Shown here in pieces: positions 5,188 to 63,763 of a stretch of 64,000 nt of DNA; the stretch's first letter is position 1; each line of letters starts with the position of its first letter. The notes under the pieces are model-generated. The model did no database searches, had not been told where the DNA came from, and saw only the letters and a list, made by a program, of their open reading frames with translations. The DNA is taken from the NCBI RefSeq assembly GCF_030286045.1, contig NZ_CP127390.1, forward strand, positions 2,249,482 to 2,313,481, written 5' to 3'. The DNA comes from Propionimicrobium sp. PCR01-08-3. GTDB lineage: Bacteria > Actinomycetota > Actinomycetes > Propionibacteriales > Propionibacteriaceae. Made by a program: the position numbers and the translations under genes.

Positions 5188-5966
5188 TTCTTCACTCCCA
5201 GGTGATTGATCATGCTGGCCAGATAGCCGGCCCCGAATCCATTGTCGATGTTCACGACGCTGACCCCGCTCGCGCACGAATTCAGCATGGTCAGCAAAGC
5301 GGCAAGGCCGCCGAAGGAGGCGCCGTAACCGATGCTGGTGGGAACAGCGATCACCGGGCAATCGGCCAGCCCCGCGATCACGCTTGCCAGCGCGCCTTCC
5401 ATGCCGGCCAGCGCGATGATGACCGACGCCTCCATGATCTCGTCGGTGTGCGCGAGCAGCCGGTGCAAGCCTGCTACACCGACGTCGTAGAGCCGGACGA
5501 CATCGTTGCCCAGCGCCTCTGCGGTCACCGCGGCCTCCTCGGCGACGGCTTGATCGCTGGTGCCGCCGGTGGCCACCACGATCTTCCCCACACCGTCCGG
5601 GATGGGCAGCACGCCGGCGACGGCGATGCGCGCCTCGGGAAAGTATCGAAAGCCGACCTGCTCGCCTGTGCTTTGTTCGAGTTGGAGAGCTGGTTCGAGG
5701 TCGAAGCGTGTCACGATCACGGTGTGCTGACCGGCGTCCAACAGTGCCGCCGTGATCTGCTGCACCTGCTCGGAGGTTTTCCCCGCGCCATAAACGATTT
5801 CGGGAATGCCCTGCCGAAGGCCACGGTGCAGATCGAGCTTGGCGAATCCGAGGTCTTCGATCGGCGCTTGCCGCAGAGATTGCACCGCGTCGTCGACCGA
5901 TATCTCGCCATCGGCGACCTGCTGCAGCAATCGAGTGGTCTCCCGTTGATCCACTGCCCCACCCAT
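5184..5966 (-). CDS. larB: LarB, pyridinium-3,5-biscarboxylic acid mononucleotide synthase
   Basis: LarB carboxylates and hydrolyses nicotinic acid adenine dinucleotide in the first step of nickel-pincer cofactor synthesis. The C-terminal half carries the AIR-carboxylase-like (PurE-like) signatures ALAGMEGALASVIAGL, PTSIGYGASFGGLAAL and the Cys-containing LNSCASGVSVVNIDNGFGAG; the Cys is the position that forms the covalent intermediate in the family. The ATG at 5966 gives 260 residues, near the family length of about 250. A longer frame reaches 6179 but its extra N-terminus is Arg/Ser rich and unlike LarB. The gene is followed by larC with a 4-base overlap and lies 139 bases downstream of a separate SDR gene. 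Confidence 0.9.
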   Translation of the reverse strand: MGGAVDQRETTRLLQQVADGEISVDDAVQSLRQAPIEDLGFAKLDLHRGLRQGIPEIVYGAGKTSEQVQQITAALLDAGQHTVIVTRFDLEPALQLEQSTGEQVGFRYFPEARIAVAGVLPIPDGVGKIVVATGGTSDQAVAEEAAVTAEALGNDVVRLYDVGVAGLHRLLAHTDEIMEASVIIALAGMEGALASVIAGLADCPVIAVPTSIGYGASFGGLAALLTMLNSCASGVSVVNIDNGFGAGYLASMINHLGVKK

Positions 5967-6105
5967 TCTTCGACTTCTTGGACGCTCGCCGGCCACCTCG
6001 AACGATACCCGGGGCCGCGAAAGCACCGGATCAGTTGTCCAGTCCATCGCTCGACGGACTGCCCTCCGTGAGGTGCCCGGGCTCCGCGCCGCGACGACGG
6101 TGCCG

Positions 6106-6816
6106 CTAAGGTCTCTCAGACCTGGGCAGCCCCGATGGACGCACGGCGACCGACTCGACAGTGGCGTCCTCGCTCGCATCCAACGCCAACTTGACGGCGG
6201 CTGCGATCGATGACGGCTTCAGGTACTTCTCTGGCTGGTATTCGTGCCCGAGTCGCTCCTGAATCTGCCTTTGCATGTCGGTGTCGACGCGTCCGGGATG
6301 AATGGAGGTGACCCGCAGGCGCCCGCGTTCCTCTTCGCGCAATGCGTCGGTGAAGGCCCGCAATGCGAATTTGGACGCCGAGTATGGCCCGTTTCCGGGG
6401 TTGGAGGTGAACCCGGAACCTGAGTTGATGGCCACCACGTGACCGCGGGAGGCGCGCAATAACGGCAGCAGCATTCGTGTCAGGTCGGCGACTGCCACGA
6501 CGTTGAGTTCGAACTGGTGTGCCCATTGCTCGCGCGATGTCTCCTCGACCGTCGATCCTTCGCTGACGCCGGCCGAATGGACGACAGCGTTCAGCCGGTC
6601 TAATTGCGCTACTGCGGCCCCAACGGCAGTTGGATCGGTCAGATCCGCAACAAAGGGCGCCGCGTCCGGAAGCGCATCGACGGCCGGCTGAACCGACTCG
6701 AGACGGGTACCGCCGACCAGGATCCGCCATTCGCCGGCGAGAGCGTCGGCTATTGCTCGTCCGATGCCCCGGCTCGCGCCTGTGATGAGTACGACTGGTC
6801 GTTCGATTGTGCTCAT
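6106..6816 (-). CDS. Short-chain dehydrogenase/reductase (SDR)
   Basis: A 236-residue classical SDR. The nucleotide-binding glycine motif is LITGASRGIGRAIA at about residues 10-23, VVHSAGVS replaces the NAG motif, the catalytic Ser lies in INSGSG (about 132) and the Tyr/Lys pair is in YSASKFALR (about 145-153). It would carry out NAD(P)-dependent oxidation or reduction of an alcohol/ketone; the substrate cannot be deduced. The ATG at 6816 is preceded by an AGGA-like site. It is transcribed toward larB but separated by a 139-base gap, so membership in a larBC operon is possible but unsupported. Its 5' end faces the tRNA promoter region. Confidence 0.85.
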   Translation of the reverse strand: MSTIERPVVLITGASRGIGRAIADALAGEWRILVGGTRLESVQPAVDALPDAAPFVADLTDPTAVGAAVAQLDRLNAVVHSAGVSEGSTVEETSREQWAHQFELNVVAVADLTRMLLPLLRASRGHVVAINSGSGFTSNPGNGPYSASKFALRAFTDALREEERGRLRVTSIHPGRVDTDMQRQIQERLGHEYQPEKYLKPSSIAAAVKLALDASEDATVESVAVRPSGLPRSERP

Positions 6817-6963
6817 GGATCCATCCTAGGAGAGCCGCCAGCGGAAGGCGGTGCCGGCGACAACGCCATACTCGTCCGGGGCGATGCTCGAGGACGAAAC
6901 TAGCCATCAAAGTGGCACTGACAAGCGCTCATTTCCGAAGCGAACAGTTGAGGCAGTGCCGTT

Positions 6964-6993
6964 TTGCATTCCGCTCGAAAACCACGCTATAGT
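6964..6993 (+). promoter_or_regulatory. Promoter for the tRNA-Asp/tRNA-Phe unit
   Basis: TTGCAT at 6964-6969 and TATAGT at 6988-6993 are separated by 18 bases, a good match to vegetative sigma factor -35 and -10 elements. The -10 box ends 32 bases before the first base of tRNA-Asp, the expected geometry for a stable RNA promoter. Confidence 0.65.
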
Positions 6994-7025
6994 TTCCGAG
7001 TTGCCTAAACCAGGCAAAGCGATCT

Positions 7026-7102
7026 GGCCCCGTAGCGCAGTTGGTTAGCGCGCCGCCCTGTCACGGCGGAGGTCGCGGGTTCGAGTCCCGTCGGGGTCGC
7101 CA
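7026..7102 (+). tRNA. tRNA-Asp (GTC), CCA encoded
   Basis: A complete cloverleaf can be drawn. The acceptor stem GGCCCCG pairs with CGGGGTC (one G-U), the D arm is GCGC/GCGC, the anticodon arm CCGCC-CTGTCAC-GGCGG holds anticodon GTC, and the T arm GCGGG-TTCGAGT-CCCGT is followed by discriminator G and an encoded CCA (7100-7102). It reads Asp codons. Only one base separates it from tRNA-Phe, so both are probably processed from one transcript driven by the promoter at 6964-6993. Confidence 0.95.
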
Positions 7103-7103
7103 T

Positions 7104-7177
7104 GGCCAGGTAGCTCAGTTGGTAGTAGCGTTCGCCTGAAAAGTGAAAGGTCGGCGGTTCGACCCCGCCCCTGGCCA
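7104..7177 (+). tRNA. tRNA-Phe (GAA), CCA not encoded
   Basis: The acceptor stem GGCCAGG pairs perfectly with CCTGGCC, the anticodon arm TTCGC-CTGAAAA-GTGAA contains GAA (Phe), and the T arm GGCGG-TTCGACC-CCGCC is perfect. The D stem is GCTC against TAGC, leaving a C-U mismatch where a GCTC/GAGC stem is usual. After discriminator A the sequence is CAT, so CCA must be added post-transcriptionally, unlike the neighbouring tRNA-Asp. Confidence 0.92.
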
Positions 7178-7205
7178 CATTTGAGCGGCATAGCCGCGAG
7201 CACCC

Positions 7206-8162
7206 TCAGCGAACGTAAACCTTGAGCCAGCGCGTCATCTCGGCGAAGACCTCGTCGCGCACCGGGTGCGGTGACAGGATCAGATCGTGCATCCCGCCCT
7301 CGATTCTCACCAGCGTCACCACCGGGCCCAGCTTCCAGGCCAACGCCCCTAGTTTCTCCACATCGAGCACCAGATCGACCGACTTCAGCGAGTCGTCCCA
7401 CACCGCGGCGGACAAGTTGCTCCGCGCACTGGTCATCATCAGCACCGGGCAGCCGATGTCGAGCCCGGCGGCCACCTGATGTTGCCCGGCCACGATCGCC
7501 TTCGCCCAGCCCAATCTCGGCACGAAGCCCTTGTTCGATTTGAAGTCGAGATCGTAATCCCATTCGCCATTCATCGAGCTGGAGATGGACTGCGCGTAGA
7601 GCTCGGATTCGCTCGTCGAAATGCCGGAGGTGGGCCGAAGCGCCGCTGCCCCCTCCAAAAGCGGACGCATGGCCCGTAGGCCCAGCCTGGATCCGCTCAT
7701 GTCGAGCCACGGTGAATTCAACACCAGGCCGTTGACGGGCCGATCACTCTGAGCTGCCCACAACGCAGTGATCAATCCGCCGGTTGAATGCCCGGTCAAG
7801 GTGATCAGGTCGTGGCCGTCCTCAGCGATCAGCCGGTAGCTCTCGTCAAGTTCCGCGCTGTAATCGGCCAGGTTCGTGATGTAACCGGCGAACAGGCCTG
7901 GCCGCAGATTGCGTCCATATCGCCGCAGATCCACCGCGTAGAAGTCGAAACCTCGTCTGTCCCAGTAGTCCGCCAAATGAGTCTGGAAGAAGTAGTCGTT
8001 CCACCCGTGTACGTAGAGCACTGCGCGATGATGGTGTGGCTCCTGACGCCGCACCAATGTCGCAGTCAACGGACGATCGGGTTCGCCGTCGGCCAAGATC
8101 GCGTCCTCAAGCTGCCAAGAGCATGCCTGGTAGCCGGGCAACACCCGGTCTTGCGTCCACAC
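7206..8162 (-). CDS. Alpha/beta hydrolase (serine lipase/esterase-like)
   Basis: A 318-residue alpha/beta-hydrolase of the Hydrolase_4/serine aminopeptidase S33 type, similar in layout to monoacylglycerol lipases. The oxyanion-region motif LYVHGWNDYFFQTHLADYW is at about residues 54-72, the nucleophile elbow GHSTGG at about 123-128, an acidic residue lies in the late VDLVLDVE segment, and the likely catalytic His is in GGMHDLILS (about 297). There is no signal peptide. The GTG start at 8162 has GGAGG ten bases upstream. It could cleave a lipid or ester; the substrate is unknown. It converges with the tRNA genes and follows the DUF3073 gene on the same strand with a 26-base gap. Confidence 0.8.
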   Translation of the reverse strand: MWTQDRVLPGYQACSWQLEDAILADGEPDRPLTATLVRRQEPHHHRAVLYVHGWNDYFFQTHLADYWDRRGFDFYAVDLRRYGRNLRPGLFAGYITNLADYSAELDESYRLIAEDGHDLITLTGHSTGGLITALWAAQSDRPVNGLVLNSPWLDMSGSRLGLRAMRPLLEGAAALRPTSGISTSESELYAQSISSSMNGEWDYDLDFKSNKGFVPRLGWAKAIVAGQHQVAAGLDIGCPVLMMTSARSNLSAAVWDDSLKSVDLVLDVEKLGALAWKLGPVVTLVRIEGGMHDLILSPHPVRDEVFAEMTRWLKVYVR

Positions 8163-42386: not shown

Positions 42387-42471
42387 CTCGGTGATTCTGC
42401 CTTCGCTGGCTTTCGCTTAATTCGGAGCGAGGACGACCGCCCGCACTCGCACGCGACGTAACCGGTGCGTC

Positions 42472-42489
42472 ATGCAAGATTGCTAGCAT
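42472..42489. promoter_or_regulatory. Dyad ATGCAA-N6-TAGCAT upstream of the family-5 transporter
   Basis: An inverted repeat with 5 of 6 matching pairs 43 bases upstream of the binding-protein gene. It is loosely like the nickel-responsive Nur box (TTGCAA-N5-TTGCAA) of streptomycetes, but the match is weak, so this is only a pointer. Confidence 0.25.
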
Positions 42490-42531: not shown

Positions 42532-44121
42532 ATGCGTGTTTTGAGGGTTCTGGCCGGGGCTGCGGTGGCGCTCGCGCTCGTCGCCTGCCAGGCGACCGGA
42601 TCTGGCACGCCCACCAATCCCCACGATGCGAGCACGACATTGCGGCTGGCGGAAACCAACGAATACGAGACCCTCAACCCCCTTGAGTACACGTTTTCGA
42701 TCACGTCGAAGTTCTATGACTCGCTGGTCACCGTCGGCCCGGACGGACTGGAGCCCGAGTTGGCCACCGAGATGCCCGTCGCCAACGCCGATCTGACCCA
42801 GTGGACAGTCAGTCTGCACCAGGGCATCACCTTCAGCGACGGTTCTGTTTTCGATGCGGACGATGTCGTCGCCGCCTACGAGGCGGTGCTCGACCCGGCT
42901 ACTGCTTCGCCGCTGCGCGGCAGCTATCAGATCGTCACCGACGTCGAGGCGACCGACGCCGATACCGTGGTATTCACCTTGTCACAGCCCTATGCAGACT
43001 TCCCCGTGATGCTGATGCTCGGCATTCCTTCTTCCGAAATGGTGAGCGGCTCGATACTCGATTCGTCGCTGGCCCGCGAGCCGGTCGGCACCGGCCCCTA
43101 CACCCTCGCCGACTGGCAGCAAGGCAGTTCGATGACGCTGCAGGCCCGCGACGACTACTGGCAGGGCACGCCGTCGATCGCCCAGATCTTTATCGGATTC
43201 GTGCCGGACGAGAACGCCCGGGCACAGCGCCTGCTGGCCGGTGACTTCGACGGAGCCCAGCTCTCGCCGGTCGTCGCCTCAAGCCTTGACGGCCAACAGG
43301 GCCTGGAGATGTTCAGCAACCAGACCGGCGACTACCGGGGCATCACCTTGCCGCAGTCGCTGCCGTTTTTCACCGACCCCGATGTGCGAATCGCGTTGAA
43401 TCTGGGCACCGACCGGCAGGCCATGGTCGACGGCATCCTGGCCGGTCACGGCACCGCGATCAGCACGCCCATCACTCCGTCGTTCGGAGATGCTTTCAAC
43501 CCGGACGCCACATTCGGCTATGACCCCGAGCGAGCCGCATCCCTGCTAGACGAGGCCGGTTGGCCAGTTGGCGAAGACGGCGTCCGGGCGAAGGACGGCG
43601 TCCGATTCTCGTTCGAGCTGATGTACTTCGCCGAAGACAGCGTGCGTCGCGACATCGCGCAGTCGTTCGCGTCCGATATGGCGCAGCTCGGTATCGAGGT
43701 GCAGCTGAGCGCAGTCGACCGGCCGCAGGCCAAGCAGAAGATGGAGACCACGGCGTTCGTGCTGGGTGGCGGCGACGTGCCCTACTCGCCCGACACGCAG
43801 GCCTACAGCGCGCTGCATTCGTCGTTCGCCGATTTCGATCCGGATGATCCGTACTCGAACCCGAGCGGGTACCGCAATGCCGAGGTGGATGCGTTGCTGG
43901 ACGCCGCAAGAAGCGAGCCCGATCCGGCAGCGCGTGACTCCGACTACCGCGAACTGCAGCAGGCGCTGATCGCCGATCCACCGACGGTGAGCGTTTTCGT
44001 GCTCGAGCACACCTACGTCGCCCGCGGACTCGAGCAGCACTCCCCCATCGAACATGTGACTGAGCCCCACGAGCATGGCATCGCCTGGGGTCCGTGGTGG
44101 AATGTGGCGAGCTGGCGATGA
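42532..44121 (+). CDS. Family 5 ABC substrate-binding lipoprotein, probably nickel or peptide
   Basis: A 529-residue binding lipoprotein with lipobox LVAC and lipidated Cys19. The family 5 (DppA/OppA/NikA) core shows ETLNPLEYTFSITSKFYDSLV, LATEMPVANADLTQWTVSLHQGITFSDGSVFDADDVV and PVGTGPYTLADWQQG. The C-terminus has EHVTEPHEHGIAWGPWW, whose His residues could bind nickel or a nickel-histidine-type complex. The transporter lies immediately upstream of the urease genes, interrupted only by an HNH gene, so nickel uptake for urease is a reasonable inference; peptide uptake remains possible. Genes 44118-48277 complete the transporter in the same orientation with overlapping ends. Confidence 0.83.
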   Translation: MRVLRVLAGAAVALALVACQATGSGTPTNPHDASTTLRLAETNEYETLNPLEYTFSITSKFYDSLVTVGPDGLEPELATEMPVANADLTQWTVSLHQGITFSDGSVFDADDVVAAYEAVLDPATASPLRGSYQIVTDVEATDADTVVFTLSQPYADFPVMLMLGIPSSEMVSGSILDSSLAREPVGTGPYTLADWQQGSSMTLQARDDYWQGTPSIAQIFIGFVPDENARAQRLLAGDFDGAQLSPVVASSLDGQQGLEMFSNQTGDYRGITLPQSLPFFTDPDVRIALNLGTDRQAMVDGILAGHGTAISTPITPSFGDAFNPDATFGYDPERAASLLDEAGWPVGEDGVRAKDGVRFSFELMYFAEDSVRRDIAQSFASDMAQLGIEVQLSAVDRPQAKQKMETTAFVLGGGDVPYSPDTQAYSALHSSFADFDPDDPYSNPSGYRNAEVDALLDAARSEPDPAARDSDYRELQQALIADPPTVSVFVLEHTYVARGLEQHSPIEHVTEPHEHGIAWGPWWNVASWR

Positions 44122-45239
44122 GTGCAACCGTCAACGATCGGGGAACTTCTGGCCGGGGGCAGCCCCGGTTCACACCCACCGGTGTGCCTAATACCTCTCC
44201 TCGGCGCGCCATCTGGTGGTCGGCCTGGAAAGGAAACGACTCCGGCCGCATCCGGACGCAGTCCCGCGCCGCCCAGACTGCCCGGCTCATCGCTCGCCGG
44301 CTTGGTTGGCTGATCCCGCTATTGCTCGGGCTCAGTCTGCTGGTCTTCGTGCTGGCCGCGTTCTCACCGGTTGACCCCACCTCGGCGTTTCTCGGCTCTC
44401 AGGACGAGTTCACCAACGGCGCGGGACGGGAGGGGATCGAAAACGCTGTTGGCGGCCGCTCCTGGTTTGGGACGTGGCTGGCCTGGCTCGGATCGCTGCT
44501 GACCGGCGATCTCGGCTATTCAATGTCGGCTCGGATGCCCGTCGCCGACGTGGTCTCGGCCCGGCTGGGCTGGACCATGCTGCTGATGGCCGGCGGTCTG
44601 CTGCTCGGTTTCCTGATCTCGGTGCCCCTGGCGTTGATCGCGTCCCGGCGTCCGAATGGTGTCGTCTCCCAGCTGCTCGATTTGGTGATGTGGGTGCTGG
44701 CAGCAGTTCCGCCGTTCCTTCTCGGGTTAGGACTGGTGGCGGTCTTTGCTCTCGGACTGCATACGCTGCCCGCTGGCGGCACCGGCACGCCCGGGCTCGA
44801 TCTCGGCGTCACCGATTTGGCCAGACACCTGGTCTTGCCGATGAGCGCCGTCGCCGCGGGCCAGCTGCCCTGGATCACGTTGCATCTGCGCAAGGCTTTG
44901 ATCGAGGCATCGGACGATCCGGGGGTGCGCGCCGCCCGATTGCGCGGCATCCCGGAATACCGGGTGTTGGCTAGGCATATCTTGCCGACCGCGATGATCC
45001 CCGTGCTGGCCATCACCGGCGCCAGGCTGACCGAGGTGATCGCGGGCTCGGTGCTCGTCGAGCAGATCTTCTCGTGGCCCGGGCTCGGCCAATCGTTGGT
45101 GAGCGCGGCCCTCGCCCAGGATTTTCCGTTGCTCGGCGTGGTCTCCATGCTGTTGGCCGCGATGGCTCTGCTCGGCGGCCTGATCGCCGACCTGGCACTG
45201 GTCTGGTGTGACCCGAGGACGGACCCCCATGAACTGTGA
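44118..45239 (+). CDS. ABC permease, DppB/NikB-like
   Basis: A 373-residue permease. After an unusually long hydrophilic N-terminus (about 60 residues) come six helices; the first is LGWLIPLLLGLSLLVFVLAAFSPVDPTSAF, the classical DppB/NikB opening. The EAA loop is RKALIEASDDPGVRAARLRGIPEYRVLARHILPTAMIPVL (about 255-295). ATG 44118 overlaps the stop of the binding-protein gene (ATGA). The next permease starts 105 bases downstream. Confidence 0.85.
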   Translation: MSATVNDRGTSGRGQPRFTPTGVPNTSPRRAIWWSAWKGNDSGRIRTQSRAAQTARLIARRLGWLIPLLLGLSLLVFVLAAFSPVDPTSAFLGSQDEFTNGAGREGIENAVGGRSWFGTWLAWLGSLLTGDLGYSMSARMPVADVVSARLGWTMLLMAGGLLLGFLISVPLALIASRRPNGVVSQLLDLVMWVLAAVPPFLLGLGLVAVFALGLHTLPAGGTGTPGLDLGVTDLARHLVLPMSAVAAGQLPWITLHLRKALIEASDDPGVRAARLRGIPEYRVLARHILPTAMIPVLAITGARLTEVIAGSVLVEQIFSWPGLGQSLVSAALAQDFPLLGVVSMLLAAMALLGGLIADLALVWCDPRTDPHEL

Positions 45240-45344
45240 ACAGCCTCCGATGAAGTCGACAGCAGGCCCCTTGTCCAGGCGCCAACCCTTTCGTTCCCGG
45301 CATCAGCAGAATCCTTGGCCCGCTCGCACAGAAGGTGTAGACAC

Positions 45345-46397
45345 ATGAGCGGCAACATCGAGAGGTACCGACCCACAGCGGCGCGCCTTAATATACCCGC
45401 TGTCAGACCACGACTGCTTGCAGCCGCGACGGTGGCCGCATTGCTCGTGTATGTAATCGTCATCCCGCTGGTTTCCGGAATCCAGCTCAGCGACGTGGCC
45501 TATCAGACCGGTGCGCGGCCACCGTCCGCCGAGCACCTTTTCGGCACTGACCTGGCCGGGCGAGACCTTTTCGTCCGATGCGCCTACGGTCTGCGGATCT
45601 CCATTCTGGCGGCGCTGGCCGGCGCGTTCAGTTCCGTGGTTATCGGCTCCGCGGTCGGCATATCGTGCGGGCTGATCGGCGGACGATTCGACCGTTTCGT
45701 GATGCGGATCGTCGACGGCTTCAACTCGCTGCCCCATCTGCTGCTGGGCATCGTGATTGCCGCCACCTTCCGCGGCTCGCTGCTCGCCATCATCATGGTC
45801 GTCGCCATCACCCACTGGCCGCAGACCGCGCGCCTCGCCCGGGCAGAAATGCTCGCCTTGTCGGCACGCGACCACTACCGAGCCGCCATCACCCAAGGAT
45901 TCACCAGGCTTCAGCTGCTCCGCTATCACGGCCTTCCCCGGCTCGCCAACCAGTTGAGCGTGGCATTCGGGCTGCTGATTCCGCATGCGATCTGGCACGA
46001 ATCGACTCTCACCTTCCTCGGGCTGGGCCTACCGCCGCACCAACCCTCGCTCGGGTCGCTGCTGAATCTCGGTCAGCAGGCGCTGCTCACCGGCAGCTGG
46101 TGGACGCTCGCCGCCCCGGCCGGGCTACTCATCGTCACGACGGTCACCATCACCGCGCTGGTCCGCCCGAACGGTCGGTCGGGATCGGCATCGCCTAGGA
46201 CGAAATCAACAGGTCGTAGGCCGAAGTCAGCAGACGCTACTAGCGTCGGCGACCCTGCGACCAACCAACGCCCCGCAGCAATGGCTCATCGACCCCAGCA
46301 CTCGTCCGCCGATACGCTCGCACAACACTCGTTCGCTTCAACACGCTCGCCAGCCGACGGCCGGCCCCCTAGTGACGCCGAAAGCTCACGACCATGA
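45345..46397 (+). CDS. ABC permease, DppC/NikC-like
   Basis: A 350-residue permease with the DppC pattern: one early helix (about 22-42), then HLFGTDLAGRDLFVRCAYGLRISILAALAGAFSSVVIGSAVG, and the EAA loop RAEMLALSARDHYRAAITQGFTRLQLLRYHGLPRLAN (about 165-200). The last about 75 residues form a hydrophilic, low-complexity tail not usual for the family. ATG 45345 has AGAAGG 9 bases upstream. The stop overlaps the ATPase gene start by 4 bases. Confidence 0.85.
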   Translation: MSGNIERYRPTAARLNIPAVRPRLLAAATVAALLVYVIVIPLVSGIQLSDVAYQTGARPPSAEHLFGTDLAGRDLFVRCAYGLRISILAALAGAFSSVVIGSAVGISCGLIGGRFDRFVMRIVDGFNSLPHLLLGIVIAATFRGSLLAIIMVVAITHWPQTARLARAEMLALSARDHYRAAITQGFTRLQLLRYHGLPRLANQLSVAFGLLIPHAIWHESTLTFLGLGLPPHQPSLGSLLNLGQQALLTGSWWTLAAPAGLLIVTTVTITALVRPNGRSGSASPRTKSTGRRPKSADATSVGDPATNQRPAAMAHRPQHSSADTLAQHSFASTRSPADGRPPSDAESSRP

Positions 46398-48277
46398 GGC
46401 GACGTCCGGTTGACCATCCATCCGAGACAGCGGGCCACGCCCAGGCGCGCATTGCCGTGCATGACCTGCGGGTCGAATACGGCGACCATGCGGCTCTTGC
46501 CGGGATCTCTCTCGGCCTTCAACCCGGTGAGCTACACGTGCTTCTCGGCCCTTCCGGTGCAGGCAAGTCCACCCTCATCAATGGCCTGACCGGCATGCTT
46601 CCTGGCGAGGCAACGGTATCCGGATCAGCCGACTTGTGCTGCGGCGAAGAACACTGGGACCTGGTCCGAACCTCGGGCCGAACTTTCAGGTCGCGAATTC
46701 TCGGCCGGATCACCGGTGTCACGATTCAGGGCTCGGTGACCGGGTTCACCGCAACCAGCACCATCGGCACACAATTGCGCGAGGCCATGCGGGTGCTGTC
46801 ACATAAGCCTCCGCTCGCGTCCGAATCCATCGATCGGCGCCCGGGAAGACTCCTGTCAACCCATCCGCACGTCGCGAGCGCTGACCCCGACCAGCGTATC
46901 CGGGAATTGTGCTGGACGTGCGGCGCAGAAGTTAACTGGCTCGATCGCTACCCCCATCAGCTTTCCGGCGGGCAGTTGAGCAGGCTCGGTCTGATGGCTG
47001 CCATGATCGCGCATCCGCCGGTGCTCCTTGCCGACGAGCCGACATCCGGGTTGGACGCAGATTCTGCGCGGGCGATCATCGGTTCGCTCGCCAATTTTGC
47101 CCACAGCGGTCACGCGGTGCTGCTCATCACGCATGAAGCCGATCTGGCTCGCCGCTTCGCCGACCAAGTGTTGATCATCGAGAACGGGACGATCATCACC
47201 CAAGGAGGCGCAGATGCGATTCCGGGTCGCCCTATCTCCCGTCACCACTCGGCCACCGGTCCCGCCCACTCGGAAATAGCACCCGACTCTGATACCGCGG
47301 GTCAGCAGTTGTCCGAACGCGCGTTTCTGATCCAGGACGGGCAGCCCCCGAGGACTACGGTGACGGACCCCGAACCCGGAATCCATGACAGGCGCCCGCA
47401 CCCGCCGACCGCGACCACCAGTCGAACCGTGCGCGGACTGCCGGCGCTATCGGACGTGGGCGAAATGACCAGTGTTGCTACCCAAGATCACCTGGCAGAC
47501 CAGGCGCCAGCATCTGATGCTGAGGCCACCCGGGTGCTGGCGGCGCGAGGGGTCACTCGTGTCCTGGGTGGGCGTCCGATCGTCCACGATCTCGATATCG
47601 AGATTCCTCGCGGCCAAATCGTCGGATTGGCCGGGCCATCGGGCGTCGGAAAGTCGACTCTGGCGTCCATGTTGGCGTTGTTGGTGGCGCCCGATGAGGG
47701 CAGCATCGAGATCGACGGTCACCGGCTTCAGGACGCGGGGTTGAAGCTTGCGCCGGCGATCCGCCGCAAGGTCGGCTGGGTCTCTCAGCAGCCGTTCACC
47801 GCGGTCGATCCCCGAATGAGGTTGGGCGAAGCGATCGAGCTTCCGGCCCGGCTCGCCGGGGTCGATGTCAACATCGACGAACTCGCCAAAAGCTGCGGAC
47901 TCGATCCGGCGTTGCTGACCCGTCATCCACACCAGGTTTCGGGTGGCGAGCTGCAACGAGCCTGCGTCGTCCGAGCTTTGGCCTTGCAACCCGACTACCT
48001 GGTGCTGGACGAGATCACCGCCATGCTCGACGAACGGACCGCCATCGACCTGCTGCAATGCATACGCGACCAGGTCCATGAGCGGCACATCGGTGCGCTG
48101 CTGATCTCCCACGACCAACGATTGCTCGACGAGTTCGCAGACGTGTGCTGGACGATGGAACCCACCAAGACCGGCACCTACCTTCGGCCCCACAGCGGCT
48201 CATTTTGGAGTCATCGACCGACGCCGTACGCAGAGCCCGGCCAGGCCCGGCGTACGAACATAACCGGCATGCAATGA
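46394..48277 (+). CDS. Fused double-ATPase subunit (DppD-DppF / NikD-NikE type)
   Basis: One 627-residue protein holds both ATPases of a family-5 transporter. First domain: Walker A GPSGAGKST (residues 52-60), signature LSGGQLSRLGLM, Walker B VLLADEPTSGLD, switch His in LLITHEADLA. Second: Walker A GPSGVGKST (about 413), signature VSGGELQRACVVRAL, Walker B LVLDEITAMLD. A low-complexity linker of about 110 residues joins them. ATG 46394 overlaps the permease stop. The last codons (TNITGMQ-stop) lie in the 25-base repeat that recurs beyond the HNH gene, so the original end of this gene may have been altered by insertion. Confidence 0.85.
   Translation: MRRRPVDHPSETAGHAQARIAVHDLRVEYGDHAALAGISLGLQPGELHVLLGPSGAGKSTLINGLTGMLPGEATVSGSADLCCGEEHWDLVRTSGRTFRSRILGRITGVTIQGSVTGFTATSTIGTQLREAMRVLSHKPPLASESIDRRPGRLLSTHPHVASADPDQRIRELCWTCGAEVNWLDRYPHQLSGGQLSRLGLMAAMIAHPPVLLADEPTSGLDADSARAIIGSLANFAHSGHAVLLITHEADLARRFADQVLIIENGTIITQGGADAIPGRPISRHHSATGPAHSEIAPDSDTAGQQLSERAFLIQDGQPPRTTVTDPEPGIHDRRPHPPTATTSRTVRGLPALSDVGEMTSVATQDHLADQAPASDAEATRVLAARGVTRVLGGRPIVHDLDIEIPRGQIVGLAGPSGVGKSTLASMLALLVAPDEGSIEIDGHRLQDAGLKLAPAIRRKVGWVSQQPFTAVDPRMRLGEAIELPARLAGVDVNIDELAKSCGLDPALLTRHPHQVSGGELQRACVVRALALQPDYLVLDEITAMLDERTAIDLLQCIRDQVHERHIGALLISHDQRLLDEFADVCWTMEPTKTGTYLRPHSGSFWSHRPTPYAEPGQARRTNITGMQ
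48253..48277 (+). repeat. Left 25-bp direct repeat flanking the HNH element
   Basis: This 25-base sequence (core TAACCGGCATG) recurs at 50418-50442 with 3 differences. It covers the final codons and stop of the fused ATPase gene. The right copy, read in the same frame, encodes TNVTGM-stop against TNITGMQ-stop here. The two copies bracket 2,140 bases that hold the HNH gene. Confidence 0.75.
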
Positions 48278-48356
48278 GATGACCAGTCTCATCGGCGTTG
48301 TCAACGTCAACCTCAAGATCAACCAGCACCAAATCCGCGTCCGCTTTCGAACGCTC

Positions 48357-48415
48357 AGCCGATGACGACGGCGACGAATTCGCGGATCGGCATCTGATAA
48401 GTCGCAGCATCCGAA
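48357..48415 (-). pseudogene. 3' remnant of a secreted-protein gene like that at 61337-62185
   Basis: Read on the minus strand, this stretch encodes TSDAATYQMPIREFVAVVIG followed by a stop, nearly identical to the C-terminus NTVTYEMPIREFVTVVIG-stop of the secreted protein encoded at 61337-62185. The DNA matches over about 47 bases (GATGACGACG-GACGAATTCGCGG block). Upstream the similarity ends and stop codons appear, so only the gene tail survives. It sits between the left 25-bp repeat and the HNH gene. Confidence 0.65.
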
Positions 48416-48507
48416 GTCAGATCGACTGGGCCCCTGCTGCCCCAAAGCAGCCCCCTACCCGAATTCACGTTCGAATATTTCGAAATGTGTTTGAATGATG
48501 CTTGTAT

Positions 48508-48523
48508 TCGTACTCGTGTTCGA
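48508..48523. promoter_or_regulatory. SOS (LexA) box upstream of the HNH gene
   Basis: TCGTACTCGTGTTCGA matches the actinobacterial/Bacillus-type LexA consensus TCGAAC-N4-GTTCGA with one mismatch. It ends 13 bases before the HNH gene start, where bound LexA would block transcription. A second TTCGAA pair (TTCGAATATTTCGAA, about 48471-48485) lies just upstream. Confidence 0.6.
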
Positions 48524-48536
48524 GTAGACTTCTTTC

Positions 48537-50411
48537 ATGGAGACACCTTCAGCAAGAGCCGGCAGGCGGGCAGCATCCCTGGCTGCTGCTAATGCTGCCG
48601 ACCGCGCGGACGGCCAAGAACCGGATAGCTGGAAAGAAGTTCTCGACCGTATCTTCCCCAACGAGGGAAAGACCCCTGCCGAGGGCCTGGATTTCGTTGT
48701 GAAACCGCCGGCTTGTCCGGCTTCGCCTACCAGTCCGCGCAACGACGCAGATCCGGACCCGGCCGCGACCAGTATGACGCCACCTGATACCGAGGGGTTA
48801 TCTCCCGAAGCCCTGATACCTGCCGACAAGAACGCATCAGTTGAGGCCCTACTTTCACCGGCCGTACCCGAACCGATCCGTAGGATGATCGCACCCGCTG
48901 AGCCTGATATGCCTGTCATTGCGTCCGTCGCTCGGGTCGCCGATCCGTTGTTGGAAGTGTCCTCCCAAGCCCGCCAGCAAGCATTCGCCGCGCTCGATCA
49001 CGCCCACCACCAACTGGTAGCAGCCGAATGCGCCGAACTCATCGCCATCCTGTACGCCGCCCAACTCTGGCACGTCAACCTCGACGAAATCGACGCAGCC
49101 TTGGACCGCAGTAGCTGCGGAGAAAATCTAAGATCCTACGGACACGACGGCACCCCACAGTTGGGCGAGTACCTGGCCTTGGAGATCGGACCGCTGCTGG
49201 GGATCACTCCCCGATCAGCCGTCCTGCGAATCGGCGAAGCGCTCGATCTCGCCTACCGACTACCGCAGACACTGCACCAAGTGCTAGCGGGCAACATTCG
49301 CGTCTGGCAAGCCGTGAAAGCATCTGAAAAGTGCAAGGAACTGCCTCTGGCGGCGGCGCTCGAAGTCGACGCCAAACTCGCCCGAGCCCTCCGCACAATG
49401 ACACCAGGGCGGGCGAACAAGCACTTGGAAGAATGGATCATCGCCGCCGATCCCGTCCGCGCCCAACAACGCGTCGAAGCCAAACGCAACGCCCGATTCC
49501 TGCGGATCTCACCCATCGAAGACGGCCACATATCGATCTATGGCATCGTGGGCGCAGACGAAGGCATCCTCTTCGATCACATCCTCAAACAAGTCGCCGC
49601 CGTCCTCCCCCACAACCTGGACACACCAGACTCCTTCACCGACCACAACATCCGCCGGGCACAAGCATTAGGCCACCTCTGCCGCGAATGGCAGCAACCG
49701 GCACAGCTCCCCGACCTCAGCAATGGAACCCTGCCCCAGCAAACAGAAACCAGCAGACGAGATCCACATCCCGACGCAACCGCCGCGATTGCCGGCCAAC
49801 CAACACACAACACGAAGGCCAACCCCAGCGACAACAACCCCATGCCCACCCACATCCTCGTCGTCCACATCAACGCAGCCGACCCCGCGCTCACCGCGGT
49901 ACCGGTCGATGTAGCCAGGATCGACGACTGGGGACCACTCCTCACGGCGAGACTCCCCGAATTCCTGAAAGACTCGAAAGTGATCGTCCGGCCCATAATC
50001 GATCCCTCAACCATTGAACCCACCGACTCCTACCAGGTGCCGGACAAAATGCGATTCGCGATCGAGCAACGCAACCCGGTCGACGTCTTCCCCTACGGAA
50101 CCACCGCAGCAAAACACTGCGATCAAGACCACACGATCCCCTACTCCAAGGAAGGCCGAGAGCAATCAAGCTCGCTTGAATTGCCGAGACCAACGAAAGA
50201 GTTGAAAGCGCAAAGCGCTCAACACTCACGAGGGATGAACGCTCCACCCGGGCAAACCAGACTCGACAATCTCGGCCCCCTCAGCCGAACAACCCACAGA
50301 GCGAAAACCCACGGCGGCTGGAAACTCGAACAACCGAGCCCCGGCCACTACACCTGGACCTCACGACTCGGCTACCAATACTCAGTCACGCCCGCAGGAA
50401 CCACTCGCTGA
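48537..50411 (+). CDS. DUF222 / 13E12-repeat-family HNH endonuclease
   Basis: A 624-residue protein with a DUF222 domain (about 140-330: LHQVLAGNIRVWQAVKASE..., LAR ALRTMTPGRANKHLEEWI) and a C-terminal HNH nuclease, CDQDHTIPYSKEG ... RLDNLGPLSRTTHRAKTHGGW (about 525-605). Such genes occur in several copies in many actinobacterial genomes (REP13E12 in mycobacteria) and some are SOS-regulated. Between the two HNH halves is an extra Ser/Gln/Lys-rich segment (about 545-572) not expected in the family. An SOS-like box precedes the gene and 25-bp repeats flank it, so it behaves like an inserted element. Substrate and biological role are unknown. Confidence 0.82.
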   Translation: METPSARAGRRAASLAAANAADRADGQEPDSWKEVLDRIFPNEGKTPAEGLDFVVKPPACPASPTSPRNDADPDPAATSMTPPDTEGLSPEALIPADKNASVEALLSPAVPEPIRRMIAPAEPDMPVIASVARVADPLLEVSSQARQQAFAALDHAHHQLVAAECAELIAILYAAQLWHVNLDEIDAALDRSSCGENLRSYGHDGTPQLGEYLALEIGPLLGITPRSAVLRIGEALDLAYRLPQTLHQVLAGNIRVWQAVKASEKCKELPLAAALEVDAKLARALRTMTPGRANKHLEEWIIAADPVRAQQRVEAKRNARFLRISPIEDGHISIYGIVGADEGILFDHILKQVAAVLPHNLDTPDSFTDHNIRRAQALGHLCREWQQPAQLPDLSNGTLPQQTETSRRDPHPDATAAIAGQPTHNTKANPSDNNPMPTHILVVHINAADPALTAVPVDVARIDDWGPLLTARLPEFLKDSKVIVRPIIDPSTIEPTDSYQVPDKMRFAIEQRNPVDVFPYGTTAAKHCDQDHTIPYSKEGREQSSSLELPRPTKELKAQSAQHSRGMNAPPGQTRLDNLGPLSRTTHRAKTHGGWKLEQPSPGHYTWTSRLGYQYSVTPAGTTR

Positions 50412-50417
50412 TCGACC

Positions 50418-50442
50418 TACGAATGTAACCGGCATGTAATGA
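50418..50442 (+). repeat. Right 25-bp direct repeat flanking the HNH element
   Basis: Second copy of the repeat at 48253-48277 (22 of 25 identical). It begins 7 bases after the HNH stop and about 135 bases before ureAB. It reads like a copy of the end of the transporter ATPase gene. It also contains GTAAC-N6-GTAAT, half-site spacing seen in GlnR sites, which may be chance. Confidence 0.75.
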
Positions 50443-50576
50443 CAACTTGCTAACGTCTTCGACGGCAAACCAGACGCAGCACAAGTCCACTGCCGGGATA
50501 CGGCAAACGACAGTCGTGCACGGACGCCGCGGTGGGCATCTTCGGGCCAGGTTCATTCGGATAGAGGAGTACGACC

Positions 50577-51242
50577 ATGCATCTGACTCCAGGTGATCAA
50601 GAACGGCTGATGCTGGCGCTGGCCGGCATGGTCGCTCGCGATCGTCGTGACCGCGGCGTCAAGCTCAACCAGCCCGAGGCCGTGGCACTGCTCACATCGT
50701 GGATCATCGAGCGGGCGCGCGACGGCGCCAGCGTCGCCGAACTCATGCAGTCGGGGCGCACGGTGCTCACCCAAGACGACGTCATGCCGGGTGTCGCAGA
50801 GCTGCTCACCGAGGTGCAGGTCGAGGCGATGTTCCCAGACGGACGCAAGCTGGTCACCGTGCATCATCCGGTCGCCGCGACAACCACCGGTGAGGGCCCC
50901 GGAGCAATTCGTGTCAGGCCGGGCACAGTTGAGATCAATGCCGACCGCTCCCCTGCCGAACGGATCGAGTTGGTCATCACGAACACCGGAGATCGTCCAG
51001 TGCAGATCGGTTCGCATCTCCACTTGCCGGACGCCAACTCGGCGCTCGACTTCGATCGGGCGAAAGCGTTCGGTTTCCGGCTCGACATCCCCGCAGGCAC
51101 CTCACACCGGTTCGAGCCGGGCGTCTCCCGCACCGTGCAGGCAGTGACGATTCGCGGCAACAGGCGCGTCCCCGGCCTTCAGATCGGCAAGACCGACGGC
51201 GGTGGCCTCGGCGAATCCACCGGCCACGCCGAGGAGGCCTGA
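50577..51242 (+). CDS. ureAB: Urease subunit gamma/beta fusion
   Basis: A 221-residue fusion of the two small urease subunits. Residues 1-100 are UreA ([44 protein letters not shown]..., then [22 protein letters not shown]), and about 108-215 are UreB ([14 protein letters not shown]..., [39 protein letters not shown]). They form the urease core with UreC. GAGGAG precedes the ATG by 8 bases. ureC follows one base after the stop. A fused gamma/beta subunit is known in Helicobacter and some actinobacteria. Confidence 0.95.
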
Positions 51243-59798: not shown

Positions 59799-61055
59799 TC
59801 AGGCCTGTCCCTCCCACCAGGAGTAGGTCTCCAGGAAGGGGTCGGGCTCGATCGGAGCCTCCGAACTCCAGACCACATGGAGCAGCCCGTCGGAATCGAT
59901 CTGGCCGATCAGCGCGGTCTTCGAGATATGGTGATTCTCGCCGTTTACCGTCACCGTTCCCTCGGGGGCCTCGAAGGTGACGCCGTCAGCGGCGGCGGTG
60001 ATCTCCTCTGTGGAGAAGCCGCCGGCCTTCTCGGCCATCGCCTTCCACAGATAGAGCGAGGTGTACGCAGCCTCCATCGGATCGGAGGTCACCCGGTCAT
60101 CGCCGTACTCGGCCTTGAAATCCTCGACGAATTCGGTGTTCTGCGGGCTCTCAATTGTCTGGAAATAATTCCAGGCAGCGAGCTGGCCCTCCACATTCTC
60201 GAGGCCGATTCCACCGACTTCTTCTTCGGCAATGGAAACCGAAATGACCGGCATCGACTCGGCACTGAGGCCGGCATTCTTGTATTCCTTGAAGAATGCG
60301 ACATTCGAGTCACCATTAAGCGTATTGAAAACGGCCTGGGCGCCGGATCCCTTGACTTTGTTGACGATCGTGGAGAAGTCGGTGTGCCCAAGCGGGGCGT
60401 ATTCCTCGCCCACGATCTCAATACCGTTAGCCTCGGCGTAGGCGTTGATGATCTTGTTTGCCGTGCGGGGGAACACGTAGTCGGAGCCCACCAGGAAGAG
60501 CGACGTCACGCCCTGCGATTTCAGATAGTCCATGGCGGGGATGATCTGCTGGTTGGTGGTCGCTCCGGTGTAGAAGATATTCGGTGAGGCCTCCAGTCCC
60601 TCGTACTGCACCGGGTAGAACAACAGCGAATCATTGTCCTCGAAAACGGGGAGCATTGCCTTGCGAGAGGCCGATGTCCAACCGCCGAAGACAGCCGCAA
60701 CACAATCCTGCGAGATCAGTTTCTCGGCCTTCTCGGCGAAGATGGTGGGCTCGGACGCGCCGTCCTCCTGGACGATCTCCAGGGTCTTGCCGTTTACTCC
60801 GCCGGCCGCGTTGATCTCCTCAGCAGCTAGGTGCAGGGAATCGCTCACAGTCTTCTCGGAGATCGCCATGGTTCCGGACAACGAGTTGACGAAGCCGATT
60901 TTGATCGTGGACCCGGACGTATCAACGCAGGTCCCCGATGCGGCACTGGTTCCGGATGAACTTGACTCCGCGCTGTCGACTTGCGCGCCACATGCGGTAA
61001 GGCCCAACGCGCCCGCAGCAATAATTGCCACAGCAATGCGTGTTCTCGACACCAT
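59799..61055 (-). CDS. urtA: Urea ABC transporter substrate-binding lipoprotein UrtA
   Basis: A 418-residue binding lipoprotein: signal helix, lipobox LTAC with Cys22 (in LGLTACGAQ), Ser-rich linker, then a type I periplasmic-binding fold. UrtA-specific segments are [95 protein letters not shown] and [19 protein letters not shown] 61055 is chosen because AAGGA lies 6 bases upstream; another ATG is two codons earlier. It leads urtABCDE; a GlnR-like dyad lies about 140 bases upstream. Confidence 0.95.
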
Positions 61056-61193
61056 CTGCATTCCTTTCGACCGGGGTCATCATTCGACGGACACGGCGCG
61101 AAGAGGGACTGGCAGTCAGCGAGCAATGGATCGCATTTTGGTCCCGTATTCCGTATCTCGGGAATTACTCTCGCAATCCGATATGTCAGCCAC

Positions 61194-61209
61194 GTAACCG
61201 TCCAGTTAC
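61194..61209. promoter_or_regulatory. GTAAC-N6-GTTAC dyad upstream of urtA (GlnR-like site)
   Basis: GTAAC (61194-61198) and GTTAC (61205-61209) are perfect inverse complements with a 6-base spacer, 139 bases before urtA. Actinobacterial GlnR sites use GTnAC-type half-sites at 6-base spacing in nitrogen-transport promoters, so nitrogen control of urea uptake is plausible. The match is short. Confidence 0.4.
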
Positions 61210-61336: not shown

Positions 61337-62185
61337 TCAGCCGATGACGACGGTGACGAATTCGCGGATCGGCATCTCATAGGTCACGGTATTCGAGACC
61401 AACGGCACCTCACCATGCTGACCCAACGCCGACCACGCCACCGACCACTCCGAAGTCACAGTAATCATGTAATCGCCACGCTTGAGATACGTATGCCCAC
61501 ACGTCGGAGACGAGGTCAACGGATCCACACCCGCCGGACGCTCCATCATCGCCGTGCACTCCGAGATGGTGCCATCACCCCAATCAAAGACCACCGTCCC
61601 CCGCGACGCCGTCAACGAAATATCAATCCCCTCCGCACTGGCCGACTGAGTCAAAGAGCCGGGATCATCCACCCAACCCCAAATCGGCAACCCCACACCC
61701 AAAGCACCCCACTCATTATCCTGAGGCTCCGGAGACAACCGAACCAAAGGCGCAGGAACACCAAGAGACGCAACAGCAGACCGGGCAACAGCACCCACAT
61801 CCACCACCGGGACCTCCGCAACAGGCGCCGTCGGCGCCGGACCCCGCAACAACCTCCCGCCATTCGGACACTTCAACCCCGAAGCACCCTCCGCAGCCAC
61901 ATGGGAGAACAAATCACACACCACCACCGGCACATCCTCACCGCCACCAGAACCACCAGCGACACCAGGATCACCATCCACCACAGCCCAACCCGAATCC
62001 GCCGCCACCCCAGCATCAGTCTGCTCAGCAGACACGGTCACCTCAGAACCACTCGAACTGGTCTCGACGCCTCCTCCAGATCCCGACAAAATGTCACTCT
62101 CTGCCTGCGCAGGCTGGACAGGCAGTAACGTCAACACAAGCGAAATAGACAGGACTATTAGGACACGAGTCATCCAACCCAGCAT
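61337..62185 (-). CDS. Secreted protein of unknown function, PKD-like end
   Basis: A 282-residue exported protein with a signal peptide (cleavage about AQA, residue 28), a Gly/Ser/Val-rich middle, and a C-terminal domain FDWGDGTISECTAMMERP..., SPTCGHTYLKRGDYMITVTSEWSVAWS. WGDGT and the GHTYLKRGDYMITV pattern are characteristic of PKD-type beta-sandwich domains. Two Cys pairs may form disulfides. It overlaps the preceding lipoprotein gene by 16 bases, so the two are co-expressed. ATG 62185 has AAGGAG 8 bases upstream. The last codons recur as a remnant near 48.4 kb. Codon choice is strongly C-ending. Confidence 0.7.
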   Translation of the reverse strand: MLGWMTRVLIVLSISLVLTLLPVQPAQAESDILSGSGGGVETSSSGSEVTVSAEQTDAGVAADSGWAVVDGDPGVAGGSGGGEDVPVVVCDLFSHVAAEGASGLKCPNGGRLLRGPAPTAPVAEVPVVDVGAVARSAVASLGVPAPLVRLSPEPQDNEWGALGVGLPIWGWVDDPGSLTQSASAEGIDISLTASRGTVVFDWGDGTISECTAMMERPAGVDPLTSSPTCGHTYLKRGDYMITVTSEWSVAWSALGQHGEVPLVSNTVTYEMPIREFVTVVIG

Positions 62186-62905: not shown

Positions 62906-63628
62906 CTATACCCCGCAGACGCTCAGGGCGTGATCGAAGGCCTCATATTCAGCGGGCGTCGCCCATAATCCGTAGTCAACCTTGACCGAGATTTGAGCCG
63001 CCACGTAGTCGCACTGAAAGCCGGTGTTGACCGGCAGCCACTGGGATGCGTCCTTGTCTTGCTTGGACTGATTGGCCGAACCGTCGACGGCCAGCAGATT
63101 GTCGGGATCGTTGGCGAACTCTTCGCGGGTCTCGTCGTCCCACGCGAAGGCTCCGGTACGCCAGGCGTCGGCCAGCGCGACCAAGTGATCGATCTGCACC
63201 TTGGACGCATCGGCCTTGGCAAAGATCACCGTCTCGCCGGTATACGGATCGTCCAGCGTCCCGGCGACGATCACGCAGCCGGAGCCTTCCCGGTACTCCA
63301 CCTCGGTCAGGTCGCGAGCCAGGATGTCGTTGCGTGTGTCGCATCCGTTATGGTCGACATCGGCCCAGCGCTGCCCGAACAGCTCACGCTGGTAGCTATC
63401 GGCATTCTGCACGTCTTGGACGCCCAACTGCGCCAGCAGCTCGCGCGCAGCCTCAACTGAGTCGATCTTACTTGGGCTGAGAGAAACCTCCGGTCCATCG
63501 GCCGAGGGCAGGCCGCCGAGATCGCCAAAGACATCTCCCGAATACAGATAGGCGATGAACGCGATCACCGCCACGATGACTACGCCGAACCGGCCCGCAA
63601 TCGATGTGGACGACCTGCGCTTGCTCAT
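62906..63628 (-). CDS. Exported or membrane-anchored DUF1524-type HNH nuclease
   Basis: A 240-residue protein with an N-terminal membrane anchor (about 15-32) and a DUF1524/GmrSD C-terminal nuclease-type domain. The HNH-like residues are in VQIDHLVALADAW (His about 146), NLLAVDGSANQSKQDKDASQWLP (Asn and Lys set) and the Cys pair GCDTRNDIL/GSGCVIV. Such secreted proteins probably degrade extracellular DNA, but activity is not shown. ATG 63628 has GGAGAGC upstream. It is followed downstream by a weak stem (ACGGCAC/GTGCCGT, 62861-62888). Confidence 0.8.
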   Translation of the reverse strand: MSKRRSSTSIAGRFGVVIVAVIAFIAYLYSGDVFGDLGGLPSADGPEVSLSPSKIDSVEAARELLAQLGVQDVQNADSYQRELFGQRWADVDHNGCDTRNDILARDLTEVEYREGSGCVIVAGTLDDPYTGETVIFAKADASKVQIDHLVALADAWRTGAFAWDDETREEFANDPDNLLAVDGSANQSKQDKDASQWLPVNTGFQCDYVAAQISVKVDYGLWATPAEYEAFDHALSVCGV

Positions 63629-63763
63629 GCTCTCCAAATCCGCCTGACTCCGGCCATCGTTCAGGCCAAAATCAGGCCAGAGTCAGGCAGTCTAATCAGA
63701 GTTCGCCGGCGATGGCTCGCGCCACGCGGCGCAGGTCGTCCTCAGTCCTTGGTGGGACGAATC

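Follow-up and report, generated by a model that had tools for sequence, protein, structure and literature searches.

A DUF222/HNH gene inserted between nickel-type transporter and urease genes in Propionimicrobium sp. PCR01-08-3 is bracketed by a direct repeat best read as a GlnR-type promoter module

In Propionimicrobium sp. PCR01-08-3, a DUF222/13E12-type gene with HNH residues sits in a lineage-specific insertion that separates the urease genes from those of a nickel-type ABC transporter. A short direct repeat brackets the gene; our preferred interpretation of its sequence is a GlnR-type promoter module that belongs to ureAB and is related to the nikA promoter. On balance we favor an account in which the right copy would serve ureAB(C) and the left copy would be its decayed duplicate. 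To our knowledge, the way in which 13E12/DUF222 genes spread is unsettled. The locus described here offers an empty and an occupied site within one genus as well as a second bracketed copy of the same polarity, it makes the last codons of the DUF222 gene a testable border of the unit, and it presents an operon split by an insertion while its downstream half carries a promoter module of the nitrogen-control type.

Coordinates without a contig prefix are positions in the window, the 64,000-nt stretch of DNA that was analysed, and G000 is the genome from which it comes. The nik names used for the window are based on context and on matches below the cut-offs. The features are collected in Table 1.

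Table 1. Positions of genes, repeats and promoter-like elements
Feature	Position	Strand	Remarks
Solute-binding-protein gene, called nikA from context	42532-44121	+	Nickel-type ABC transporter
Transporter permease genes	44094-45239 and 45315-46397		Nickel-type ABC transporter
Fused ABC ATPase gene, NikD/NikE-like	46394-48277	+	627 aa; below NCBIfam curated cut-offs
DUF222/13E12-type gene with HNH residues	48537-50411	+	Pfam DUF222 and alignment
Fused urease gamma/beta subunit gene, ureAB	50577-51242	+	Followed by a frame read as ureC
Periplasmic-binding-protein gene, urea-uptake-type	59799-61061	-	Box 132 nt upstream
Lineage-specific extra DNA, ~2.37 kb	48191-50564		From ATPase homology to ureAB homology, by comparison with relatives
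Left repeat copy	48253-48277	+	TACGAACATAACCGGCATGCAATGA; degenerate box ATAAC-n6-GCAAT at 48260-48275
Right repeat copy	50413-50442	+	Begins at the second base past the DUF222 stop codon
Promoter-like module before ureAB	50425-50456	+	Box GTAAC-n6-GTAAT at 50425-50440; -10-like hexamer TAACGT at 50451-50456
Like module 5' of nikA	42458-42489	+	Layout as at ureAB; gene 42532-44121
GlnR-type box GTAAC-n6-GTTAC	61194-61209	-	GTAACTGGACGGTTAC; 132 nt upstream of gene 59799-61061
Relic, 3' end of a PKD-like protein gene	48358-48441	-	28 aa, 64% identity to intact gene 61337-62185
Dispersed palindromic repeat, in-frame insertion	50149-50236	+	Within the HNH loop, between D-H and N
Palindromic repeat, other places	L067 4465-4534 (query); G000:C1 2568433, 2408175, 573852, 287674, 698878, 2505050, 1762838
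DUF222 copy L062	G000:C1 447148-449271	-	Convergent to gltX, ends overlapping by 6 nt

The insertion and its empty sites

The initial annotation, made from the sequence of the window, had proposed that the HNH gene was inserted between the transporter and urease, and comparison with relatives bears this out. In three genomes of the same genus (G001, G002 and G003) the ATPase gene joins ureAB directly, with no DUF222 gene between them; the two genes are separated by 9 nt in G001 and overlap by 20 nt in G002 and G003. The start of ureAB lies 34-54 nt beyond the last conserved ATPase codon in these relatives and 2386 nt beyond it here. The site is empty in all three relatives that have it. The other four same-genus genomes searched could not be scored, because none gave an ATPase match above 37% identity among the matches listed.

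The same annotation had read the repeat as the end of the ATPase gene and predicted that an empty site would join the transporter to ureAB with a single repeat copy. The direct junction was found in each of the three relatives, but the single repeat was found in none. An ancestral target with one copy was therefore not seen among the three empty sites, and the repeat does not just represent the end of the ATPase gene. Translation of the right copy does give TNVTGM-stop, as had been noted, but the homology of the relatives' ATPases to ours stops at 'LRP' (residue 599 of 627) and the tails beyond it are unrelated and differ, so TNVTGM-stop is not a conserved gene end, and we regard it as a by-product. 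The ATPase frame closes with 28 codons not matched in any of the three relatives, and it reads across the left repeat.

These observations bear on the possibility that the gene arrived by a classical, transposition-like event in which 25 nt at the 3' end of the ATPase gene were duplicated as the target site. Such an event would leave direct repeats on either side of a lineage-specific insert, as are found here. In its simple form we rejected it on the three empty sites without a repeat, and the differing ATPase tails argue against it as well. For the one long gene of the insert, Pfam gave DUF222 and nothing else. Among the repeat pairs listed, 25 of 32, none is an inverted repeat that links the two ends of the insert. 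We consider this explanation very improbable, and return to it with the other DUF222 copies below.

Besides the DUF222 gene, the insert holds the relic of a PKD-like protein gene. Intact PKD-like genes are present at 61337-62185 in the window and beside the DUF222 copy at gltX, and both adjoin a small lipoprotein-like gene. The PKD/lipoprotein gene pair is itself adjoined by a gene (62906-63637, minus strand) whose protein has a GmrSD C-terminal domain.

The direct repeat

The 25-bp direct repeat that the initial annotation had pointed out is confirmed: 22 of 25 bases are identical between TACGAACATAACCGGCATGCAATGA (48253-48277) and TACGAATGTAACCGGCATGTAATGA (50418-50442). It extends to 30 nt at 83% identity (48248-48277 and 50413-50442). 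A pattern search of the whole genome allowing up to three mismatches matched at these two places only, and the reversed control gave no match. A duplication longer than 30 nt was rejected, since extension of the left copy beyond that length was not significant under any of three scorings (p 0.10, 0.66 and 0.59).

We also compared the right copy with 2386 overlapping 400-nt windows of G000, G001 and G003, on both strands. Its best non-self match was the left copy, with a score of 20, followed by the nikA promoter of G003 with 18 and then by matches at 13. When gaps were allowed under strict scoring, the score of 35 obtained at the nik-ure locus was reached by 5 of 384 pairs of real flanks drawn at random. 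Three of these five (scores 48-60) resemble true repeats or related genes, and the other two, with scores of 39 and 40, are without explanation; the pair scoring 39 is a 27-nt pair inside the window. The control match with a score of 60 is a duplication of about 140 nt located 5' of two neighboring open frames (L063 1871-2017 and 4108-4243), possibly another duplicated promoter.

A probable GlnR-type promoter module before ureAB

The module at the right copy faces ureAB and lies 120 nt before its start codon. Its box fits GTnAC-n6-GTnAC, the GlnR box of Streptomyces venezuelae as given in the part of the source consulted (PMC10704036), at 9 of 10 arm positions when n is counted as a match; the exception is the final base, T instead of C. 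In Streptomyces coelicolor, ureA and amtB are under GlnR control according to the same part of that source (PMC10704036). A GlnR gene is present in G000 (Pfam GlnR_1st, 1.8e-27), and the best solved-structure matches of its protein are 8hig and 8hih, with 4o1h, whose chain is named GlnR, also matched. Boxes before amtB read ATAACCGGCTTGTAAC in G000 and ATAACTCAGCTGTAAC in G003. The locus resembles the GlnR-controlled ureA and amtB promoters of actinomycetes in having a box near GTnAC-n6-GTnAC together with a GlnR gene; it differs from them in that a nuclease-like gene parts ureAB from the nik genes and is flanked on either side by the module.

The closest relatives of the module are found before nikA. 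Positions 50421-50457 are 86% (G002) and 89% (G003) identical to the stretch before nikA over 37 nt. With one mismatch allowed, the 32-nt pattern GTAAC-n6-GTNAY-n6-TTGNTANNNT occurs at four places in four genomes, all of them before nikA or ureAB; none of these is in G001, and the reversed control gave zero. The pattern was drawn from the sites that it then found, so the informative part of this result is that no further places appeared.

A scan of the window for boxes gave four sites, each on both strands, or eight strand-hits, compared with 3.4 (s.d. 2.6) in mononucleotide shuffles. Three of the sites precede nikA, ureAB and gene 59799-61061, and the fourth lies inside nikA. We take the minus-strand binding-protein gene at 59799-61061 to be urtA. 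We also scanned 30 regions upstream of ureA, 26 of them outside G000-G003 (25 in other genera and one in G006). A box-like match was present in 5 of these 26, always 83-97 nt before the gene and in two cases identical, and no such box was present in the remaining 21; shuffles of the regions gave 0.09 strand-hits per region. No box stands directly before ureAB in G001-G003, which is what would be expected if the nik promoter serves ureAB there.

From this evidence we infer GlnR control of ureAB. The sequence that had been taken for the 3' end of the ATPase gene and the target of insertion is better read as a GlnR-type module, of which the left copy merely happens to form the ATPase tail. The left copy looks decayed, because the arms of its box are ATAAC and GCAAT and it lacks a TANNNT hexamer at the spacing of the right copy.

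A competing explanation is that the copies are GlnR boxes of separate origin, one belonging to ureAB and the other being a weak control site of the DUF222 gene or having been brought in with its flank, so that their likeness would reflect a shared motif plus chance. Part of the 22/25 identity does fall in the core of the box, where independent boxes would resemble each other too, and the 16-nt cores represent one motif that is also found at amtB (ATAACCGGCTTGTAAC) and nikA. However, 8 of the 9 further bases outside the core also agree (TACGAA and GA), the left copy outranks the nikA promoter of G003 as a match to the right copy among the 2386 windows, and the left copy lacks a -10-like hexamer at the proper distance. 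We regard independent origin as unlikely, if still a serious alternative to duplication.

Flank duplication at gltX and at other DUF222 copies

As the initial annotation had stated, 13E12/DUF222 genes are multicopy: six genes in G000 exceed the Pfam cut-off, and a C-terminal fragment lies at 1955106. It had named other 13E12 copies lacking a flanking duplication as a finding that would refute its proposal. No clear duplication is seen at 18 of 20 copies, two of them borderline; the copy at gltX (L062) is bracketed. At gltX, a decayed copy of the 3' end of the gene (131 aligned columns, its stop codon included) lies 278-149 nt before the start of DUF222. This duplicate scores 73, compared with a maximum of 42 over the 2386 windows. 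Among the random real flank pairs, 4 of 384 reach the 40 of the gltX copy under strict scoring and 9 of 384 reach its 73 under permissive scoring. The site is empty in most relatives: gltX is followed by the gene read as rpsJ, with no DUF222 gene between, in four (G001-G004) of the five same-genus genomes viewed, and in G006 other genes lie 3' of gltX.

The two bracketed cases share a pattern. In both, the near copy starts at the coding end of the DUF222 gene (at gltX, 17 nt before the stop codon and just past the conserved VP), and the polarity is alike, with the intact copy 3' of the DUF222 gene and the decayed copy 5' of it.

The 20 copies surveyed comprise the 6 of G000 and 14 in G002, G003 and G006; two of the latter (L151 and L158) are truncated. 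Flank duplication was clear in 2 of 6 copies in G000 and in none of 14 in the relatives, so duplication is not a constant signature of DUF222 copies and we rejected it as a general rule. A target-site duplication of fixed length also does not fit, because the extent varies from 25-30 nt at nik-ure to 131 nt at gltX and 18 of the 20 copies show no clear duplication. Two orthologs among the 18, L150 and L155, are borderline. Under strict scoring they lie at the 0.27% and 0.43% level of null windows, some 12 windows having been tried for each, and the L150 flank pair beat 200 shuffles. Shuffles proved too lenient a control, however: of the 384 random pairs of real flanks, 103 scored at least 41. 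These brackets were dropped.

When the copies in G000, G002, G003 and G006 are grouped into distinct sites by their neighbors, DUF222 is convergent to the neighboring gene at 6 of 14 sites by an uncontrolled count, with stop-to-stop distances of -20 to +66 nt. All six convergent neighbors match a family: gltX, an auxin-efflux-type carrier, a threonate-kinase-like gene (below cut-off), fructose-bisphosphate aldolase, an acyl-CoA dehydratase activase and pnp. L061, beside a putA-like gene, was rejected as a seventh such site: it only looked convergent through a reading frame that carries on for 384 nt beyond the conserved end. Tested at that conserved end, it showed no bracket. The L061 frame (5116-7455) departs from the conserved C-terminus and runs on into an unrelated open frame.

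How the insertion may have arisen

In the account that we favor, a DUF222-HNH (13E12-type) unit would have been inserted between the transporter ATPase gene and ureAB in this lineage, likely by break repair or single-crossover recombination. DNA adjoining the 3' end of the unit would have been duplicated onto its 5' side during insertion. A single event of this kind, carrying the DUF222 gene and adjacent 3' DNA, would explain both the polarity and the variable length of the duplications. The right module abuts the HNH gene at its 3' end and is the predicted promoter of ureAB(C), and for that reason urease would have kept its nitrogen control though severed from the nik promoter. The left copy would be a decayed duplicate 5' of the unit that is now read as the tail of the ATPase. 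The promoter of ureAB may either have been in place before the insertion or have arrived with the insert.

Another explanation is that the gene itself is not mobile and that a rearrangement took place: a block from another DUF222 locus, with a PKD relic beside a divergent DUF222 gene as at 447-451 kb, would have recombined into the site, and the promoter would have been duplicated separately from the nikA promoter. The PKD relic and the divergent order do resemble the gltX locus, and the ureAB module does resemble nikA promoters. However, of the copies at 2828 kb and at gltX, it is the former to which the DUF222 gene of the window has the higher identity (63% over the best piece, against 58%), and the insert shows no match to gltX or its relic. 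We find this rearrangement improbable.

Beyond this locus, we offer a tentative generalization of the favored account, which we hold to be less likely than not. DUF222-HNH genes might be self-moving units whose 3' border is formed by their own last codons. They would insert flush against promoters or the 3' ends of genes, and a stretch of that DNA, of varying length, would be duplicated onto their 5' side. By trapping the promoter of a downstream operon, here urease, they would become hard to lose.

The element shares with the known DUF222/13E12 (REP13E12) genes of actinobacteria its DUF222 domain, its HNH residues and the presence of several diverged copies per genome. In Mycobacterium tuberculosis, REP13E12 elements are described, in the part of the source consulted, as repeats without defined function that include a putative prophage attachment site and undergo frequent gene conversion (PMC13061034). 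The portions of the openly licensed DUF222/REP13E12 literature consulted (including PMC10589994 and PMC13061034) deal with repeats and gene conversion, and no description of insertion sites was found in them. Here, in contrast, two insertion sites are empty in relatives and are bracketed by duplicated neighbor sequence.

A functional parallel may be drawn with the free-standing HNH homing endonucleases of phage T4 (the mob genes), which likewise are intergenic genes between conserved genes and absent from relatives. An intergenic gene missing from co-linear relatives, a trait of homing endonucleases, was observed at both nik-ure (3/3) and gltX (4/5). For the T4 endonucleases, the part of the review consulted (PMC2988022) states that the inserted gene contains or adjoins a promoter for its downstream neighbor, which is said to favor retention of the insert. 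Target duplication goes unmentioned in the main text of that review, where 'duplicat' has 0 occurrences. The present case differs from the mob genes in its bacterial chromosome and its DUF222 domain.

The DUF222/HNH gene and a dispersed palindromic repeat

The DUF222 gene of the window matches Pfam PF02720 at 36.8 bits (cut-off 24.4; E=3.6e-9). Residues D531, H532, N578 and H587 are invariant over 12 aligned DUF222 copies and are the predicted HNH catalytic residues, on our assumption that the D-H, N and H of the motif correspond to these positions. The gene ends at GTTR and is without the I/V/L-x-x-P codons found next in most of the 12 copies. A palindromic repeat inserted in frame adds about 27 aa to the HNH loop and is absent from the other 11 copies; the DUF222 copy of the window may be inactive. 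In a search for DUF222 carriers, viral contigs gave 17 pattern matches, none of which was confirmed, and plasmids gave one distant match at 28.9% identity.

The palindromic repeat is about 70-80 nt long and consists of GAGCAATCGAGC..GCTCGAATTGC and a second hairpin. With the L067 copy as query, it was found at eight places in G000 at E<=1e-3, the query included, among the matches listed (Table 1); the window copy is not among these. A search of Rfam gave no family in window positions 48000-51000, and three sub-threshold matches for the L067 copy. At L168/L171 (G003:C1 ~1013120-1013246), the palindromic repeat occurs as a tandem pair directly 3' of a tRNA-like end, read by eye as GGTTCAAATCC...CACCCCGAC, the last bases of which recur in each unit.
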